A stretch of DNA of 40,047 nucleotides, from positions 1-40,047 of the forward strand of contig JABILG010000007.1 of the NCBI GenBank assembly GCA_018654605.1, written 5' to 3'. Origin of the DNA: a bacterium (GTDB lineage Bacteria > Desulfobacterota_D > UBA1144). A model generated the notes under the pieces. It saw only the letters and a program-made list of their open reading frames with translations. It was not told where the DNA came from and searched no databases. How positions within the stretch are numbered: position 1 is the first letter of the stretch; each line of letters begins with the position of its first letter. A program made the position numbers and the translations under genes. Shown here piece after piece: positions 2,384 to 40,047 of the stretch.

Positions 2384-2739
2384 TTTTTTAATTTGACCCA
2401 TTTGCCTAACCATTCTTCAAAATTAGGATGGAATTCAATTTCGGTTTTCTTTTCTTTTGCTGGTGTGCTATAAAACATAATCATTCCAAAATTACTCATT
2501 GCAGATTCTATCTCCCTATATTTCTCTGGTTTCGAAACATAGCCTCTTTTACATTGAACACCAATCCAGATTCTATTTTCATTTTTCTTATTATAGAGAC
2601 CAAAGACAATATCAGCAGTTCCTTTGCTGCCCCTACTCTCGATTCCATAAAATTTTAGCTCTTTATACTCTGATATCAGATCAGCTACCTTTAGATGAGT
2701 CTTTTTTTCAAATAGGTAACCTTTTCTGTATTGTGACAT
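2380..2739 (-). CDS. Small PD-(D/E)XK nuclease, archaeal Hjc / Mrr-like
   Basis: A 119-residue protein with a layout like archaeal Holliday-junction resolvase Hjc and Mrr-type nucleases. It has a basic YRKGYLFEKK start with a possible catalytic Glu11, then the motif SRGSKGTADIVF (Asp43) and GVQCKRG with the Q-x-K variant (Gln62, Lys64) typical of Mrr-like enzymes. The fold assignment rests on motif order and spacing, not on a search. Its stop overlaps the yebC stop by four bases on the other strand. The position next to yebC, where ruvC often lies, invites the guess of a junction resolvase, but a restriction-type or repair nuclease is equally possible. Start ATG at 2737-2739, no strong ribosome site. 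Confidence 0.6.
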   Translation of the reverse strand: MSQYRKGYLFEKKTHLKVADLISEYKELKFYGIESRGSKGTADIVFGLYNKKNENRIWIGVQCKRGYVSKPEKYREIESAMSNFGMIMFYSTPAKEKKTEIEFHPNFEEWLGKWVKLKN

Positions 2740-2825
2740 AGTAACTTATACAACAATTATTCTTTATAAACAAAGATTTTTTTGATTAGTTATTGGGGAT
2801 AAATAGTCTACAATAATAGTCTATT

Positions 2826-3458
2826 ATGAAAATAATTTTAGTTAGACATTGTGAAACTGATTGGAATAAAGAAGAAAGGTGTCAAGGCGTTAGCGATCTT
2901 GAATTAAACACCAATGGTTTTTCCCAAGCAAAGAAGCTTGCGTTATATTTTAAAGATAAAGAAGTTGATTATGTTTTTTGTAGTGACCTTAAAAGAGCAA
3001 AGCAAACTCTAAATGAGATTAATTATGATCAAAGATTTAAGGTTATTTATTCTGAAAAGTTAAGGGAAATGGACCAGGGTGAATTTGAAGGACTATCGTT
3101 AAGTTATCTTAAAGAGAAGTATTCTAATGAGCTACGAATCTGGAGAGAGAATCCCGAGAATTTTCGATTACCTAAAGGAGAGACTCTTGGTGAAGTTAGA
3201 GATAGGAGTTTGAGTTATATTAAATATATATTGAAAGATTTACCATCGGAGAGCACAGTATTAATTGTGACCCATAACCTAGTCATTGCATCTATACTAT
3301 GTACAATTTCAAACAAAGAGTTGAAGTTCTTTGCCGACTTTACGACAGAATCGGGCGCAATATCAGAAGCCTCTTTTTCTAACAATAATTTAACTTTAGA
3401 TATTTTAGATTTTGTAGGTCATTTAAAATTAAATGATAAAGTTGTAAAATCTGCATAA
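2826..3458 (+). CDS. Histidine phosphatase superfamily protein (phosphoglycerate-mutase-like)
   Basis: A 210-residue branch-1 histidine phosphatase. The catalytic histidine sits in LVRHCETDWN near residue 8 (the usual RHG is RHC here), followed by SDLKRAKQT with the conserved Arg, Glu in MDQGEFEGL around 83, and the second histidine in VTHNLVIASI around 154. The substrate cannot be told: such proteins include cobalamin and alpha-ribazole phosphatases and general phosphomonoesterases. The lack of a full phosphoglycerate mutase sequence argues against a glycolytic role. It is the first gene of a plus run with argS (28-base gap) and a phosphatidyltransferase. Confidence 0.88.
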   Translation: MKIILVRHCETDWNKEERCQGVSDLELNTNGFSQAKKLALYFKDKEVDYVFCSDLKRAKQTLNEINYDQRFKVIYSEKLREMDQGEFEGLSLSYLKEKYSNELRIWRENPENFRLPKGETLGEVRDRSLSYIKYILKDLPSESTVLIVTHNLVIASILCTISNKELKFFADFTTESGAISEASFSNNNLTLDILDFVGHLKLNDKVVKSA

Positions 3459-3486
3459 GGAACAGGAGTTAAAATAAAGTAGTGAT

Positions 3487-5130
3487 ATGTTGACTGACAA
3501 AATAACTGAAAAAATTAAGAATTCATTGTTAAACGACCCAAGATTTGCTGATCTAGATTTTTCTAATCTTCTACTTTCTATACCTCGTAATCCTGATCAT
3601 GGAGATTTTTCTACTAATTTTGCGATGATTAACTCTAGTAGGTTAAAATCAAAGCCGATTGACCTAGCTCAGGAAATGTTAAATTTATTAAAAAAATCGG
3701 ATGATTCTTTTTTTCAGGATATATCTATTGAGAAGCCTGGATTTATTAATTTTGTAATTTCAAACAAAATTTACCAACGCTATCTTGCTGATGTAGTTTT
3801 GCAAGGAGTGGATTATGGCTCAGGAATTCATAATAATAAGAAAGTTTTAATAGAGTTTGTTTCAGCTAACCCTACAGGATTGCTTCATTTAGGCCACTTG
3901 AGAAATGCTGCAGTTGGTGATTCTATTGCAAGAATATTAAAGTTTTCGGGATATGATGTTGTTAAAGAATATTACGTAAATGACTATGGCAACCAAGTTC
4001 GTTTATTAGGAGAATCTCTTAAAGAAAGAGTTTTAGAAAAATTAAAGCTTGATTTCAATATCCCAGAAGGTGGATATAAAGGTGACTATTTAATTGATGT
4101 AGCTGAAACTCTCTTGTTGACCAAAGATTCAAGGTCAATATTGAAAGAAGAAACCGCTTTCTTTTCTAATTTCGCGATTAGCTGTCTTACTAAAGAAATC
4201 GAGAAAGATCTTGAAGATTTAGATATTAACTTTGATTCCTGGTATTCAGAAAAGGAAAAGATACATGATTCAGATTCAGTCATAAATATTAAAAAACTTA
4301 TAATGTCTGCAAACGGACTATACAAAAAAGAAAAAGCCGAGTGGATTAAGACTTCAGAATATGGTGACAATGATGATTGGGTTATTACTAAGTCTGATGA
4401 CTCATCTACTTATTTTATGAATGATATTGCATATCATCATGATAAATTCCTCAGAGGTTTTGATAAGATTGTTAATGTTTGGGGTGCTGATCACCATAGT
4501 CATATTTCAAGATTAAAAGCATCTATGAAACTCCTTTCGAATGATTTAAGCAAATTGGACTTTGTTCTGATTCAGTTTGTAAGATTGATAAAAGATGGTC
4601 AAGATGTTTCTATGTCAAAAAGATCTGGAACTTATACAACAATTAAGGATATGCTGAATGAATTCAATAAAGATCTAGTAAGGTTTATGATGGTATCAAG
4701 AAGTTCTGATTCTCATTTTGATTTTGATTTAGATAAGTGCAGAGAGGGGTCAGACGATAACCCCATTTTTTATATACAGTATGCCAGCGCAAGGATTAAC
4801 AGTATTTTAAATAAACATGATTTAAATAAAGATGATACGAAATCTGTAGACTTATCTTTATTGACTGAGGAAAAAGAGATTAAGTTGATAAAAAAAATAC
4901 TAAGTTTTCCAGACACAGTAGAAGAAGCCTCTGGTACAATGTCCCCTCATAAGATAGCTTTTTACCTGCAAGAGTTAGCCGCAATCTTTCATAGTTATTA
5001 TAAAAGTACAAAGGTTCTGATTGAGAATGATGAATTAAGTAAGGCAAGGATTCTACTGCTGAGTTCTATAAAAATAGTTTTTGTAAATGGGCTAAACTTA
5101 CTTGGTGTATCATCACCAGAAAGAATGTGA
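3487..5130 (+). CDS. argS: Arginyl-tRNA synthetase
   Basis: ArgRS charges tRNA-Arg with arginine in the cytoplasm. The 547-residue class Ia enzyme has the N-terminal Add-1 domain (IPRNPDHGDFSTN near 33), the HIGH-type motif in NPTGLLHLGHLRNA around 128-141, a WGADHH motif around 333, the KMSKS equivalent MSKRSGTYTT around 377 and a C-terminal anticodon-binding helical domain with SARINSIL. Length is normal. Start ATG at 3487; the gene sits between a histidine phosphatase and a CDP-alcohol phosphatidyltransferase with gaps of under 30 bases, so co-transcription is likely. Confidence 0.97.
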   Translation: MLTDKITEKIKNSLLNDPRFADLDFSNLLLSIPRNPDHGDFSTNFAMINSSRLKSKPIDLAQEMLNLLKKSDDSFFQDISIEKPGFINFVISNKIYQRYLADVVLQGVDYGSGIHNNKKVLIEFVSANPTGLLHLGHLRNAAVGDSIARILKFSGYDVVKEYYVNDYGNQVRLLGESLKERVLEKLKLDFNIPEGGYKGDYLIDVAETLLLTKDSRSILKEETAFFSNFAISCLTKEIEKDLEDLDINFDSWYSEKEKIHDSDSVINIKKLIMSANGLYKKEKAEWIKTSEYGDNDDWVITKSDDSSTYFMNDIAYHHDKFLRGFDKIVNVWGADHHSHISRLKASMKLLSNDLSKLDFVLIQFVRLIKDGQDVSMSKRSGTYTTIKDMLNEFNKDLVRFMMVSRSSDSHFDFDLDKCREGSDDNPIFYIQYASARINSILNKHDLNKDDTKSVDLSLLTEEKEIKLIKKILSFPDTVEEASGTMSPHKIAFYLQELAAIFHSYYKSTKVLIENDELSKARILLLSSIKIVFVNGLNLLGVSSPERM

Positions 5131-6283: not shown

Positions 6284-7576
6284 CTAAAAATTGCAACCGA
6301 AAATTCTATCCAATATTATTGCAACAGCACTCCTCACGGATAAATGATTATATTCATAATAACTACCGACAGGCTTTAGAATGTAGTCTGCATTATCTAA
6401 AACTTCTTTAGTTAAGCCCCAACCAGTTCCAAATAAGAACAAATAAGGACTATCATCCGTATCCAAGTTACGTCTGATGTCAGAATAATTAACCATATTA
6501 TGCATAATTCTTCCATCGGTTGCAACTATTTTTGGTCTTTTTCCATGAATTTTTTTAATTGCTTTTATTGCGTCGCTGATACTATTTCTTATTTCTATAT
6601 TTTCAAGCGCTTTATGTTTGGTGCTATCATTTTTAATATTGATTCCCTTTTGCCAGTAATCTAAAACATTCTTAGCCAATTCCCTTTGTTCTTTAACAGG
6701 ATGTGTTATGTAGTACTTTTTAATACCGTAGGACATACAAGTTCTCGCTATATCTTGAATATCAAGATTAGTTAGAGATGTTTTAATAACTTCACCTTTA
6801 ATATTTTGGATTGGATAATGAACTAAAGCTAAGTATGCGTTTGATTTAATACTATCTTTCTTTATTTTCCTTAGAAACTCTCTTTCCTCTAGCTTTAAAT
6901 TTGAAGCTTCTAATAAGTCCTCCCTTCGTTTTAGGGTTGAGAGAATAGATTCCTGTCTATTGAACTCTTTAATTCTCTTGTGGTTACCTGTAGTAAGTAG
7001 TTTTGGTACTTTTCCAACCTTTAACTTTGCAGGGCGGGTATATACAGGATGTTTTAAGAGTGAATCATTTAAGCTATCGTTTTTAACTGAGTCCTTATTT
7101 CCAACAACTCCATTAATCATTCTACTTACCGAATCCATAAGTATAACGGCTGGATATTCACCTCCAGACACAATGTAGTCGCCAATTGAGACCTCTAAGT
7201 CGGCATATTGTTCTATGATTCTTTCGTCAAATCCTTCATATCTACCACATATGATAGATATGTTCCCCATCTTTGACATCTTTTTAGCTAAATTATTATC
7301 CAATCTTTTTCCTTTAGGAGTTAGGAATATTACTTTAGTGCCTGGATTAGATTTCTTAATCGCATTTATTGCCTTGGAAGCGTTTTTATATTTAATTACC
7401 ATGCCTGGCTCTCCACCAAATTGCTTATCATCCATGCGGTCTGAATCATTTAGATAATCTGAGTAAGAGAATATATTTACTTTAATCTTCTTTCTTTTTA
7501 TTGCTTTAGATAGAACTCCATATTTTAGACTTGGTTTAATTAATTCTCTGAAAACGCTTAAAATATTAAATATCAT
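6284..7576 (-). CDS. trmD: tRNA (guanine37-N1)-methyltransferase TrmD fused to a second SPOUT RNA methyltransferase domain
   Basis: TrmD methylates N1 of G37 in tRNAs to keep the reading frame. Residues 1-235 are a complete TrmD: FGGEPGMV (53-60), CGRYEGFDERI (110-120), IGDYIVSGGEYPA (131-143) in the trefoil knot, and the tail DSLLKHPVYTRP (171-182) with the expected catalytic Asp just before it. Residues 245-430 match the PF09936-type SPOUT domain often found next to or fused with TrmD in deltaproteobacteria: YLALVHYPI, LDIQDIARTCMSYGIKKYYI, FGTGWGL and YNHLSVRSAVAIILDR. Its RNA target is not established. The ATG overlaps the rimM stop as ATGA; rplS follows after seven bases. Confidence 0.93.
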   Translation of the reverse strand: MIFNILSVFRELIKPSLKYGVLSKAIKRKKIKVNIFSYSDYLNDSDRMDDKQFGGEPGMVIKYKNASKAINAIKKSNPGTKVIFLTPKGKRLDNNLAKKMSKMGNISIICGRYEGFDERIIEQYADLEVSIGDYIVSGGEYPAVILMDSVSRMINGVVGNKDSVKNDSLNDSLLKHPVYTRPAKLKVGKVPKLLTTGNHKRIKEFNRQESILSTLKRREDLLEASNLKLEEREFLRKIKKDSIKSNAYLALVHYPIQNIKGEVIKTSLTNLDIQDIARTCMSYGIKKYYITHPVKEQRELAKNVLDYWQKGINIKNDSTKHKALENIEIRNSISDAIKAIKKIHGKRPKIVATDGRIMHNMVNYSDIRRNLDTDDSPYLFLFGTGWGLTKEVLDNADYILKPVGSYYEYNHLSVRSAVAIILDRIFGCNF

Positions 7577-8182: not shown

Positions 8183-8626
8183 CTAAGCTTTTTCCGCAGG
8201 TTCAGGCTCTGTTTCAGGAGCTTTCTCTTCGGCAGTAGAGGCTTCAGCTTCAGGAGCTTTCTCTTCGGCAGTAGAGGCTTCACCTTCAGGAGCTTTCTCT
8301 TCGGCAGTAGAGGCTTCAGCTTCAGGAGCTTTCTCTTGTTCTACTGGAGCTTTTTTTGGTTTTCTTTTTGGTTTATCTTTTACTAATTCCGCATATTTTT
8401 CTGGGTCTGTTAGTTTTTGAACTCTATTGCTTAGCTGAGCACCCTTCTTAACCCAATCGTTAAGTTTTTCCATATTTATTGAGACAACTGAAGGCTCTTG
8501 AAGTGGGTCATATGTTCCAAGTATTTCTAAGAATTTTCCATCCCTTGGAGATCTAGAATTGGTTGCTACTACTCTGTAGAAAGGTCTCTTTTTTCTTCCT
8601 AATCTTGCTAGTCTAATTTTTATCAT
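8183..8626 (-). CDS. rpsP: 30S ribosomal protein S16 with an acidic repeat tail
   Basis: S16 is an early-binding small-subunit protein. Residues 1-80 are normal S16 (MIKIRLARLGRKKRPFYRVV, RDGKFLEILGTYDP). The start at 8626 is chosen over an ATG 15 bases upstream because it gives the conserved MIKIRL start and has a strong GGAGG site with six bases spacing. After residue ~90 comes a tail of about 55 residues rich in Glu, Ala, Pro, with a 12-residue repeat of the type EKAPEAEASTAE. Alanine- and glutamate-rich S16 extensions occur in other bacteria, but their role is unknown. Length 147 residues against 80-90 in the usual protein. Confidence 0.95.
   Translation of the reverse strand: MIKIRLARLGRKKRPFYRVVATNSRSPRDGKFLEILGTYDPLQEPSVVSINMEKLNDWVKKGAQLSNRVQKLTDPEKYAELVKDKPKRKPKKAPVEQEKAPEAEASTAEEKAPEGEASTAEEKAPEAEASTAEEKAPETEPEPAEKA
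8214..8337 (-). repeat. Tandem 36-bp repeat in the rpsP tail
   Basis: Three full copies (8214-8249, 8250-8285, 8286-8321) and a partial fourth. Copies one and three are identical; copy two differs by one base (Gly in place of Ala). The unit is in frame and codes for 12 residues, so copy-number change alters only the tail length. Confidence 0.92.
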
Positions 8627-37181: not shown

Positions 37182-38717
37182 ATGGACTATAGCAAAGTAT
37201 TAATTTTAGATTTTGGTTCTCAGGTTACAAAGTTAATAGCGCGAAAAATAAGAGAATTAAATATTTACTCAGAAATTCTTCCATATGAAACTAATCTTAA
37301 AAAAATAGAAGATATTAATCCAGACTGCATAATCCTTTCTGGAAGCCCTGCAAGTGTGCATGATAAAAAAGCTCCACAGCCAGATTTAAGAATCCTAGAT
37401 CTGGAGGTGCCCATATTAGGTATATGCTATGGAGCTCAGTTGCTATCAAAAGTTTTGGGCGGGAAAGTCGCAAAATCAAAAATTAGGGAGTTCGGACCTT
37501 CTAAGCTTAAAAAGATTTCAAATTCAAAGCTATTAAAAAATATAAAGAACAATGAAGTATCATGGATGTCTCATGGAGATACAATTGTTAAGCTACCAAC
37601 TAAAATAAAAGTTATAGCAAAATCCGAGTTCGGATCTATATCATTATTTTCTTCTAAAGACTCTAGAATTGTCGGAACACAGTTTCACCCTGAGGTTGTC
37701 CATACTGAATTCGGCAAACAATTTATAAAAAATTTCTTAGTAGACATTGCAGGATGCAAGCAAACTTGGAAGCCAGGGAAGCTTGTTAAGCAAAAAATAG
37801 AAGAAATTAAAAATCTCATAGGTAAAAATGTAGCTATATCAGCAATTTCTGGTGGAGTTGATTCAAGTATTTCTTCAGTTCTGGTCAGTAGAGCAATAGG
37901 CAATAAACTTAAATGCTTCATTGTTGACACAGGGCTAATGAGGCATAATGAAGTAAAAGAAATAGTCCCAGTCCTTAGAAGTCTTGGAGTTAACCTAAAA
38001 GTTATTAACGCGGGCAGTCTTTTTCTTGGAAGATTAAGAGGTATTATAGATCCAGAAAAGAAAAGAAAAATAATAGGTAAAACATTTATTGAATTATTCG
38101 ATAAAGAATCAAAAAAAGTTTCAAATGCAAAGTTTTTAGTGCAGGGGACTTTGTATCCTGACGTTATTGAAAGTGTTAATGTAAGTGGACCTTCTGCTGT
38201 AATTAAATCTCATCATAATGTTGGCGGGCTTCCTAAGAATATGAAGCTTTCATTAGTAGAGCCTCTAAGGGATCTATTTAAAGACGAAGTTAGAGACTTA
38301 GGTAAAGCTTTAAAAATTAAAAAAAGTTTAATTGGTAGACATCCTTTTCCTGGCCCAGGGCTGGCAATAAGAATTATAGGGGAAGTAACAAAGGATAGAG
38401 TTAAGCTGTTGCAATTAGCTGATAAAATATTTATAGATATTTTAAAAGAAAAAAATCTTTATGATAAAATATGGCAAGCTTTTTGTGTTCTTATACCAAT
38501 AAAAACTGTAGGTGTAATGGGTGATGAAAGAACTTATGAAAATACAATTGCAATAAGAGCAGTTAATAGTGTTGACGGAATGACTGCAAATTGGGCACGG
38601 ATCCCTTTTGATACTTTAGATTTGATATCCTCAGAAATTATTAATAATGTTAAGGGGATTAATAAGGTGGTTTTTGATATTTCTAACAAGCCACCTAGTA
38701 CAATAGAATGGGAGTGA
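37182..38717 (+). CDS. guaA: GMP synthase (glutamine-hydrolysing)
   Basis: GuaA turns XMP into GMP. The 511-residue protein has the class I glutaminase with Cys in LGICYGAQLL around 79, His/Glu in FHPEVVHTEFG around 168, the ATP-pyrophosphatase P-loop SGGVDSSI around 225, and the C-terminal dimerisation domain with HPFPGPGLAIRI around 387. It ends with the usual PPSTIEWE. Five bases after guaB. The 3' end of guaA is a known integration site for genomic islands, and an integrase follows 277 bases downstream. Confidence 0.96.
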   Translation: MDYSKVLILDFGSQVTKLIARKIRELNIYSEILPYETNLKKIEDINPDCIILSGSPASVHDKKAPQPDLRILDLEVPILGICYGAQLLSKVLGGKVAKSKIREFGPSKLKKISNSKLLKNIKNNEVSWMSHGDTIVKLPTKIKVIAKSEFGSISLFSSKDSRIVGTQFHPEVVHTEFGKQFIKNFLVDIAGCKQTWKPGKLVKQKIEEIKNLIGKNVAISAISGGVDSSISSVLVSRAIGNKLKCFIVDTGLMRHNEVKEIVPVLRSLGVNLKVINAGSLFLGRLRGIIDPEKKRKIIGKTFIELFDKESKKVSNAKFLVQGTLYPDVIESVNVSGPSAVIKSHHNVGGLPKNMKLSLVEPLRDLFKDEVRDLGKALKIKKSLIGRHPFPGPGLAIRIIGEVTKDRVKLLQLADKIFIDILKEKNLYDKIWQAFCVLIPIKTVGVMGDERTYENTIAIRAVNSVDGMTANWARIPFDTLDLISSEIINNVKGINKVVFDISNKPPSTIEWE

Positions 38718-38776
38718 ATTAGTGCATAAGTATTCTTCCCTAATATGCTGTAATCATTGACTATTATATAATATAA

Positions 38777-38975
38777 ATTACTACCAAATTACTACCATTT
38801 TTTGACTAATCTTCTTTAAGATGTATATTGTATCTTCATAACCTGTTGTAATGATTAGGTTATAGAAATTGGTATAAAAAATTACTACCAAAATACTGAC
38901 TATCAAGACCTACTATTGAAGTAGAAAAGTATTCTGGGGGTTTAGTCAGTAAAAATGCAGTAAAAATTACTACCA
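38777..38975 (+). repeat. Four direct copies of ATTACTACCA upstream of the integrase
   Basis: ATTACTACCA occurs at 38777-38786, 38788-38797, 38881-38890 and 38966-38975, all in the same orientation; AA or AAA precedes each. The first two are 11 bp apart, one helical turn. Spacing and position between guaA and int suit arm-type sites of a tyrosine recombinase or the binding sites of an excisionase. The whole 38718-38993 stretch holds no gene that I can see. Confidence 0.75.
38802..38829 (+). promoter_or_regulatory. Promoter candidate of the integrase gene
   Basis: TTGACT - 16 bases - TATATT, lying between the first repeat pair and the third repeat, about 165 bases before the integrase ATG. 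Overlap with likely integrase binding sites would allow autoregulation. By-eye call. Confidence 0.4.
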
Positions 38976-38993
38976 ATTTGGGACAATAACATT

Positions 38994-40047
38994 ATGGTAA
39001 GTGGAAGGAAAAAAAATCCAGATAATAAAAAAACCAGAAAAAAACGAACTTCTTTAAGTCATAAAATGACACATAGAGAAATACTCATTGATAGTAATAA
39101 TTGGGGTGATAAGTTCAACATTGGTAGTTTGGTTTTGTATAAAACAGAAATTCAAAAAGATATATATCAATACACTTTTTGGGTTCCCACTATGGGAAGA
39201 ACTTTGAAAAGAACCACAAGAACATCCAATTATGATGATGCAGTTAAAATTGCACAACAAGAATATTACAAAGTTCAAAATATTATGAACACAGGTGGTG
39301 GAACATATACCAAAAAGACCTTACGAAGTTCAATTGATGAATATTTAAATGAGAGGTATAAGTTTGAAGTATCACCTAAACTTATTACAGAGGGTAGGTG
39401 GAAAAACATAAGTTCTATTTTAAGAAAAAATCTAATTGAGTTTATAGGACAATATGATTTCCCCTTATCAATGATTAATGGTGCGATATTTAAACAATAT
39501 TTTAATTGGAGGAAAAAGGACAAAAGTGGAAATCCTACTAATCTCGCACTCTCTACATTGAGAAATGAGAAAAGTAGTATTAACCATTTCTTTAGGTGGT
39601 GTATCAAAGAAAAAAGATATATGAGTAATAACCAAGAACCCATATTCCAAGAAAATGTTTTTAGAAATATGACCCCTAATAAAAGAAACCCATTCTCTTT
39701 ATCGCAATATAGAAAACTCTACAAATATATTCAAAAGTGGAGTAGTGATGGTTTTATAAAACATTCCCCTGAAACAAGACATATCAACAATATGGTTTGT
39801 AATTATATAATGGTTCTTGCGAATTGTTCCTTGAGACCTAGCGAATTATTAAAAGTGAAGTGGCACGACATAACCTTTGTAGAAAAGAAAGTTCAAGGGA
39901 GAATAATATGTGAGATAGCAGTTCCATTAGAAAATAGTAAGGTAAGGAAATATAGAGATGGAATATGTAATAGAGGGGACAAACTACAGGATATTAAACG
40001 ATTATCAAAGTTTCATAACCCAGATGACTTTGTATTTACAAATAGTG
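38994..40047 (+). CDS. int: Tyrosine recombinase/integrase, N-terminal part (runs off the window)
   Basis: A long frame from ATG 38994 stays open to the right edge (351 codons visible). It has a very basic start (GRKKNPDNKKTRKKRTS), a core-binding SAM-like domain around 105-215 with RWKNISSILRKNLIEFIG, and the beginning of the catalytic domain: box I Arg in NCSLRPSELLKVKWHDI around 283-299. The His-x-x-Arg and Tyr boxes are beyond the edge. A TAA lies ten codons upstream in frame, so the ATG (or an ATT one codon earlier) is the only start. Orientation is the same as guaA, and the gene lies next to the repeats, the typical first gene of an integrative element at the guaA 3' end. Confidence 0.85.
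   Translation, partial: MVSGRKKNPDNKKTRKKRTSLSHKMTHREILIDSNNWGDKFNIGSLVLYKTEIQKDIYQYTFWVPTMGRTLKRTTRTSNYDDAVKIAQQEYYKVQNIMNTGGGTYTKKTLRSSIDEYLNERYKFEVSPKLITEGRWKNISSILRKNLIEFIGQYDFPLSMINGAIFKQYFNWRKKDKSGNPTNLALSTLRNEKSSINHFFRWCIKEKRYMSNNQEPIFQENVFRNMTPNKRNPFSLSQYRKLYKYIQKWSSDGFIKHSPETRHINNMVCNYIMVLANCSLRPSELLKVKWHDITFVEKKVQGRIICEIAVPLENSKVRKYRDGICNRGDKLQDIKRLSKFHNPDDFVFTNS

Follow-up and report, generated by a model that had tools for sequence, protein, structure and literature searches.

The four copies of the repeat ATTACTACCA found between guaA and a truncated tyrosine-recombinase gene are most likely arm-type sites of the integrase encoded by that gene, located in the attL of an element that has integrated at the guaA 3' end. 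The best explanation for the region at 38700–38993 of the window (the whole of contig C14, 40,047 bases) is that it forms the attL of an integrated mobile element. This arrangement of presumed docking sites beside guaA is ordinary in kind and adds a further case to a known class of sites. The integrated element has one of its ends here, in the small, AT-rich genome of a poorly known bacterium. The preliminary description of this DNA had proposed either the integrase or an excisionase as the protein bound. Assignment to the integrase has the best support, as this motif, with its 11-bp period, flanks tRNA-like attP cores beside integrases elsewhere.

The guaA gene (GMP synthase) is complete (37182–38717, plus strand) with Pfam matches to GATase (1.8e-43) and GMP_synt_C (5.2e-42). 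Its stop at 38717 and the int ATG at 38994 bound a gap of 276 bp, within which all four repeat copies lie. Positions of the copies (38777–38786, 38788–38797, 38881–38890 and 38966–38975, the last being just upstream of the int ATG) agree with the preliminary description in that they are exact, occur on the same (plus) strand and fall within 200 bases, with start-to-start distances of 11 (one helical turn), 93 and 85. Their placement outside coding frames was likewise borne out, as the only open reading frames overlapping them are two on the minus strand, of 41 and 38 aa, which are read as chance. An Rfam search over the window returned only two tRNAs and an SRP RNA, none of them in the guaA–int gap.

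Two further features were noted in the gap. A promoter-like sequence, TTGACT-16-TATATT (38802–38829, plus strand), sits between copies 2 and 3 as a weak candidate int promoter, with 10 of 12 positions matching. An overlap of the repeats with an int promoter had been proposed; such promoter-like matches are no better than chance in this region, with three found and 3.2 expected. Between copies 3 and 4 there is an inverted repeat, TACTGACTA / TAGTCAGTA (38894–38951, not assigned to a strand), which is part of a repeat and has a z of -2.1 as single-stranded DNA. An excisionase or some other second protein may bind there.

The repeat is rare. Four copies of ATTACTACCA were found in the 40,047-base window where 0.07 would be expected, and none of 100 shuffles reached four. 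Across the genome (1,023,471 bases in 19 contigs) there are five copies, four of them beside guaA and the fifth on contig C6 within an unrelated open frame of 706 codons; the motif is thus not spread at random. All three genomic copies of the longer AATTACTACCAA are in the guaA–int gap. The ATTACTACCA set does not belong to a tandem array or a low-complexity run, and the other 10-mers of the window with at least four copies in 200 bp come solely from two short-period tandem arrays (position 1 to about 100, 18-bp period; about 8213–8337, 36-bp period). However, some 10-mer with four or more copies in 200 bp was also present in 29 of 200 simulated sequences of the size and composition of the window, and clustering alone is therefore not decisive; for the same reason, more weight is given to which motif it is and to where else it recurs. 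A literature search with the letters of the motif gave nothing on integrase sites among the titles listed.

To follow the motif beyond this genome, a test set of 43 viral-contig loci having two TACTACCA copies spaced by 11 bp, like copies 1 and 2 of the window, was compared with a control set having the same pattern reversed (56 loci), the loci being partly non-independent, with 41 of 43 and 48 of 56 distinct contexts, respectively. The pair occurred outside long open frames at 25 of the 43 test loci as against 9 of 56 controls (Fisher 1.4e-5). At least three same-strand copies within 400 bp were found at 10 test and 4 control loci (Fisher 0.023), and a tRNA T-arm-like sequence within 400 bp at 6 and 0, respectively (Fisher 0.005). 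Three of these six T-arm loci (L057, L071, L073) have a near-identical context around the TACTACCA pair with several T-arm-like sequences, and no integrase in the stretches examined. Another viral contig, L078, has nine consecutive TACTACCA copies at 11-bp spacing (1941–2036), again with no integrase in the stretch examined.

An integrase was identified within 1 kb of the pair at 4 of 43 test loci and 0 of 56 control loci (Fisher 0.033), a comparison that favours the test set, as the custom-built wider profile was seeded partly by the integrases of L006, L086, L087 and L096 and the controls were given no Pfam seeding. Controls were examined with this profile rather than with Pfam, which was applied to the 43 test records only; Pfam missed the L006 integrase, and counts of integrases near the motif are thus lower bounds. 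An earlier two-seed profile, replaced by the wider one, had given 2 of 43 and 0 of 56. Among 84,980 species (one genome each), the exact repeat pair at 11-bp spacing was found at six loci, one of which (L178) has an integrase, and integrase loci located separately in these pair-bearing genomes did not overlap with pairs. In all, 39 of the 43 viral loci and five of the six genome loci with the pair showed no integrase within 1 kb, many of the stretches being short.

The five integrase-linked loci (L006, L086, L087, L096 and L178) all carry the repeats on the strand of the integrase, at or past the int 3' end. In L006, L086 and L178 the pair overlaps the last integrase codons (with one mismatch in the first copy in L086) and is followed by a core resembling a tRNA 3' end (GTTCAAGTCCCGCCTCGCGCA in L006) and then by a second cluster, which comprises three copies about 190 bp beyond the core in L006 and L086 and a degenerate pair in L178. 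At L096, TTTCGATTCCCATGCACTTCCGCC lies between two pairs separated by about 130 bp, the second copy of the first pair having one mismatch, and L087 has a tRNA-like core followed by a single pair. Such a layout is that of an attP whose core has arm-type sites to either side (to one side in L087). The tRNA-like cores were recognized by eye and with a T-arm pattern, and ARAGORN detected no complete tRNA gene in the comparison loci, as expected for an attP fragment. Given that the integrases of L006, L086 and L178 are similar to one another, the five loci represent about three independent cases. The geometry of the window differs from these loci, its repeats lying before the 5' end of int rather than at or after the 3' end. 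From this recurrence, integrases of little sequence similarity would seem to have an arm motif in common, TACTACCA with a period of 11 bp, and such a shared motif could help to locate attP sites by pattern. In both L006 (about 2430–2465) and L178 (about 6380–6402), the repeat pair in the last int codons encodes NYYQITT, so that arm sites double as coding sequence in these two loci.

The integrase gene itself (38994–40046, plus strand) is cut by the contig end, with 351 aa present and the second half of the catalytic domain lying beyond the end. Its product matches PHROG 1 (integrase) with an E of 2.4e-19, and positions 27–99 of 172 of PF00589 with an E of 1.9e-4, which is below the cut-off (0.0015 in a second search). 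The site is thus adjoined by a tyrosine-recombinase gene, as in an attL with arm-type sites, and four short direct repeats lie between core and int, as an attL should have. Two other PF00589 proteins, both above the cut-off, are encoded in the same genome and two apiece in the five relatives searched; all of these are presumably of the XerC/XerD type. Searches for relatives of the integrase were negative in 13 further genomes belonging to the family, 56 further ones belonging to the class, 50,697 phage records and 72,556 plasmid records, as was a peptide-pattern search of viral contigs. A sequence search of solved structures also returned no relative, giving six chains of one unrelated protein (E 0.96–1.5).

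A model of the full-length integrase had a pLDDT of 39, too poor for a structure search, and in this low-confidence model the N-terminus has the order strand-strand-strand-helix. Residues 36–106 modelled alone without an alignment gave four strands followed by a helix (pLDDT 79.9). Foldseek searches with this N-terminal model gave no match at E 0.001 in the PDB or in a viral library, the first-ranked match in the latter being a mycobacteriophage integrase (probability 0.97, E 0.08). When 1000 PDB chains were realigned, the arm-type domains 3rmp, 3ju0 and 3jtz had Z scores of 5.7, 5.3 and 5.2, in a set of weak matches that are all below Z 8 and interspersed with unrelated folds such as actin-capping protein (6.0). 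Tn916 Int itself was absent among the structural matches listed, and no arm-domain profile match was detected in the integrase. The fold model and these weak arm-type domain matches are consistent with the N-terminal domain as the predicted binder of the repeats. In the IntTn916 subgroup, the arm-binding domain consists of three strands and one helix, with a beta insertion in the catalytic domain (PMC8138268); this order fits the low-confidence full-length model, and the domain model has one extra strand. Domains of the DUF4102 type, such as those of HPI and HAI7, are also among the weak structural matches of the N-terminal model. No DUF4102 Pfam match was listed for the integrase at E up to 10 (HMMER filters on). 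The integrase is not placed in the IntSXT subgroup (epsilon15 cluster of guaA integrases), whose members have an N-terminal DUF4102 domain.

Integration at the guaA 3' end is known from GIsul2, which uses the core GAGTGGGA (PMC9376610), and the epsilon15 integrase cluster targets the 3' flank of guaA (PMC8138268). This end of the gene is presumed to be the insertion site here also, with the last guaA bases, ACAATAGAATGGGAGTGA (38700–38717, plus strand), as the presumed attL core. These bases resemble the GIsul2 core, and we infer that the exact crossover point lies in these last guaA codons. Gene order in relatives connects the locus with contig C2. A photolyase-like gene directly follows guaA in G006, and in G010 (96% identity of the guaA product) it comes after two small genes; in the present genome it is found 2.6 kb from the end of C2. 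Copies similar to the guaA core, the first being GACAATGAAATGGGAGTAA, occur between this gene and the C2 end, such that the core is duplicated at the far side of the insertion, as in an attL. Given these core copies beside the gene that follows guaA in relatives, it is most likely that foreign DNA lies between C14 and C2, contigs which are linked by synteny only and of which C2 has core copies that may belong to the cassettes described below. The rest of int and the far att site were not recovered when the ends of guaA and int served as queries against the same genome. Thirty-four 3-kb stretches at the ends of the 17 contigs other than C14 and C2 contained no repeat pair and no continuation of int. 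The ends of contig C2, scanned for motifs only (the 5-kb photolyase end and the other 3-kb end), showed no TACTACCA, and the other end of the element is absent from the assembly.

The end of C2 holds three copies of a sequence of ~130 bp, each ending in a guaA-like core, in an array of tandem small cassettes (L168, G000 contig C2:76000-81106, about 2500–4850). Single copies are found in G010 (C13:54726) and G013 (C7:4255), making three of the 57 genomes of the class, with a mean column identity of 83%. Within each ~130-bp repeat, two GTRYAAAGTTT-type repeats are paired at 11-bp spacing (in G013 the first of them is off at one position), and the left ends of two C2 cassettes have a single copy of this type. 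Judging from the translations, the cargo comprises a MORN-repeat gene, a small lipoprotein-like gene and other small genes, and no integrase was found in the cassette DNA examined. As the cassette left ends are unlike the attL of the window, we consider the guaA end to be a site shared by two kinds of element in this genome. The possibility that GTRYAAAGTTT is a second arm motif of the same integrase was not favoured on the same grounds, the motifs also being different. Three viral-contig matches to the cassette repeat, all inside long open frames, were dropped. It is improbable that the guaA locus is integron-like, with the integrase docked on ATTACTACCA capturing and stacking the integrase-less cassettes of C2; were this the case, the guaA end would be a platform for shuffling small genes. 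The stacked cassettes at this guaA site would in any event offer such genomes a route of gene gain.

Other explanations of the repeats were weighed against the same data. That they are chance occurrences or local duplications in an AT-rich spacer, having no function, draws on the clustered 10-mers of the simulated sequences but is very unlikely, as the 0.07 copies expected apply to ATTACTACCA itself, which is found again, with its 11-bp period, in the att regions of other elements. Replication iterons, too, typically come as short direct repeats spaced by about a helical turn, and the spacing of the ATTACTACCA pair would suit iterons of an integrated plasmid-like element. This is nevertheless extremely improbable, given that the adjoining gene encodes an integrase, that there is no replication gene on the guaA side of the element and that the remaining copies are irregularly spaced. 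A rather unlikely reading is that the repeats bind not the integrase but another protein of the element, either an excisionase (recombination directionality factor) or a repressor of int. The repeats do lie upstream of int and around the promoter-like match, the inverted repeat at 38894–38951 shows that other sites may be present, and KplE1 offers a case of directionality factors that bind attL too and repress int (PMC2951348). Against this, in the comparison loci the repeat flanks the core to either side and occurs at the 3' end of int, which is the layout of arm sites and not that of a one-sided operator.

With the repeats as arm-type sites of the integrase, the following course of events is predicted. 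The N-terminal domain of the integrase would bind the four ATTACTACCA repeats, and its core-binding and catalytic domains would bind and cut the core at the end of guaA. Bending of the DNA would join arm sites and core, upon which the element would integrate or excise, with a crossover in the last guaA codons that would keep those codons intact. Binding of the integrase would probably also repress int, as in prophage KplE1, because the repeats fill the region upstream of the gene.

Of the systems with some likeness to this site, Tn916 inserts at many AT-rich sites, unlike the guaA-end element. Its DR2 arm site is one that we take to contain GTAGTAA, which resembles the reverse complement TGGTAGTAAT. 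The Tn916 integrase has an arm-binding domain of strands plus a helix (PMC8138268), like the N-terminal model obtained here, and the likeness is one of predicted domain fold and of this presumed motif. Prophages of Oenococcus have direct repeats of about 10 bp, five or six per attP and beside int, which are split unevenly between the attP arms and have been proposed as arm sites by like reasoning (PMC8074189); they differ from the window in the sequences of the repeats and in their tRNA sites. GIsul2 and other guaA islands, as well as the epsilon15 cluster, share insertion at the guaA 3' end with the present element (PMC9376610, PMC8138268). The core is GAGTGGGA in the guaA islands and GAATGGGA here, and the integrase is not detectably related to those of the guaA islands by the searches made; no description of arm sites of these islands was found in the available portions of the two articles. 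A close arrangement is the attL/intS promoter region of the KplE1 prophage of E. coli, in which the arm-type sites overlap the int promoter (PMC2951348). KplE1-type prophages are inserted at tRNA genes and have another repeat, whereas guaA is used here. The intergenic gap is of similar size, averaging 208–228 for that layout and measuring 276 in the window. Negative autoregulation of an int gene with attL upstream on the same strand has been reported for KplE1 and predicted more widely (PMC2951348); such autoregulation, shown in KplE1, would probably apply to the present element, in which, as in KplE1, the presumed arm-type sites are located upstream of an int gene on the same strand.
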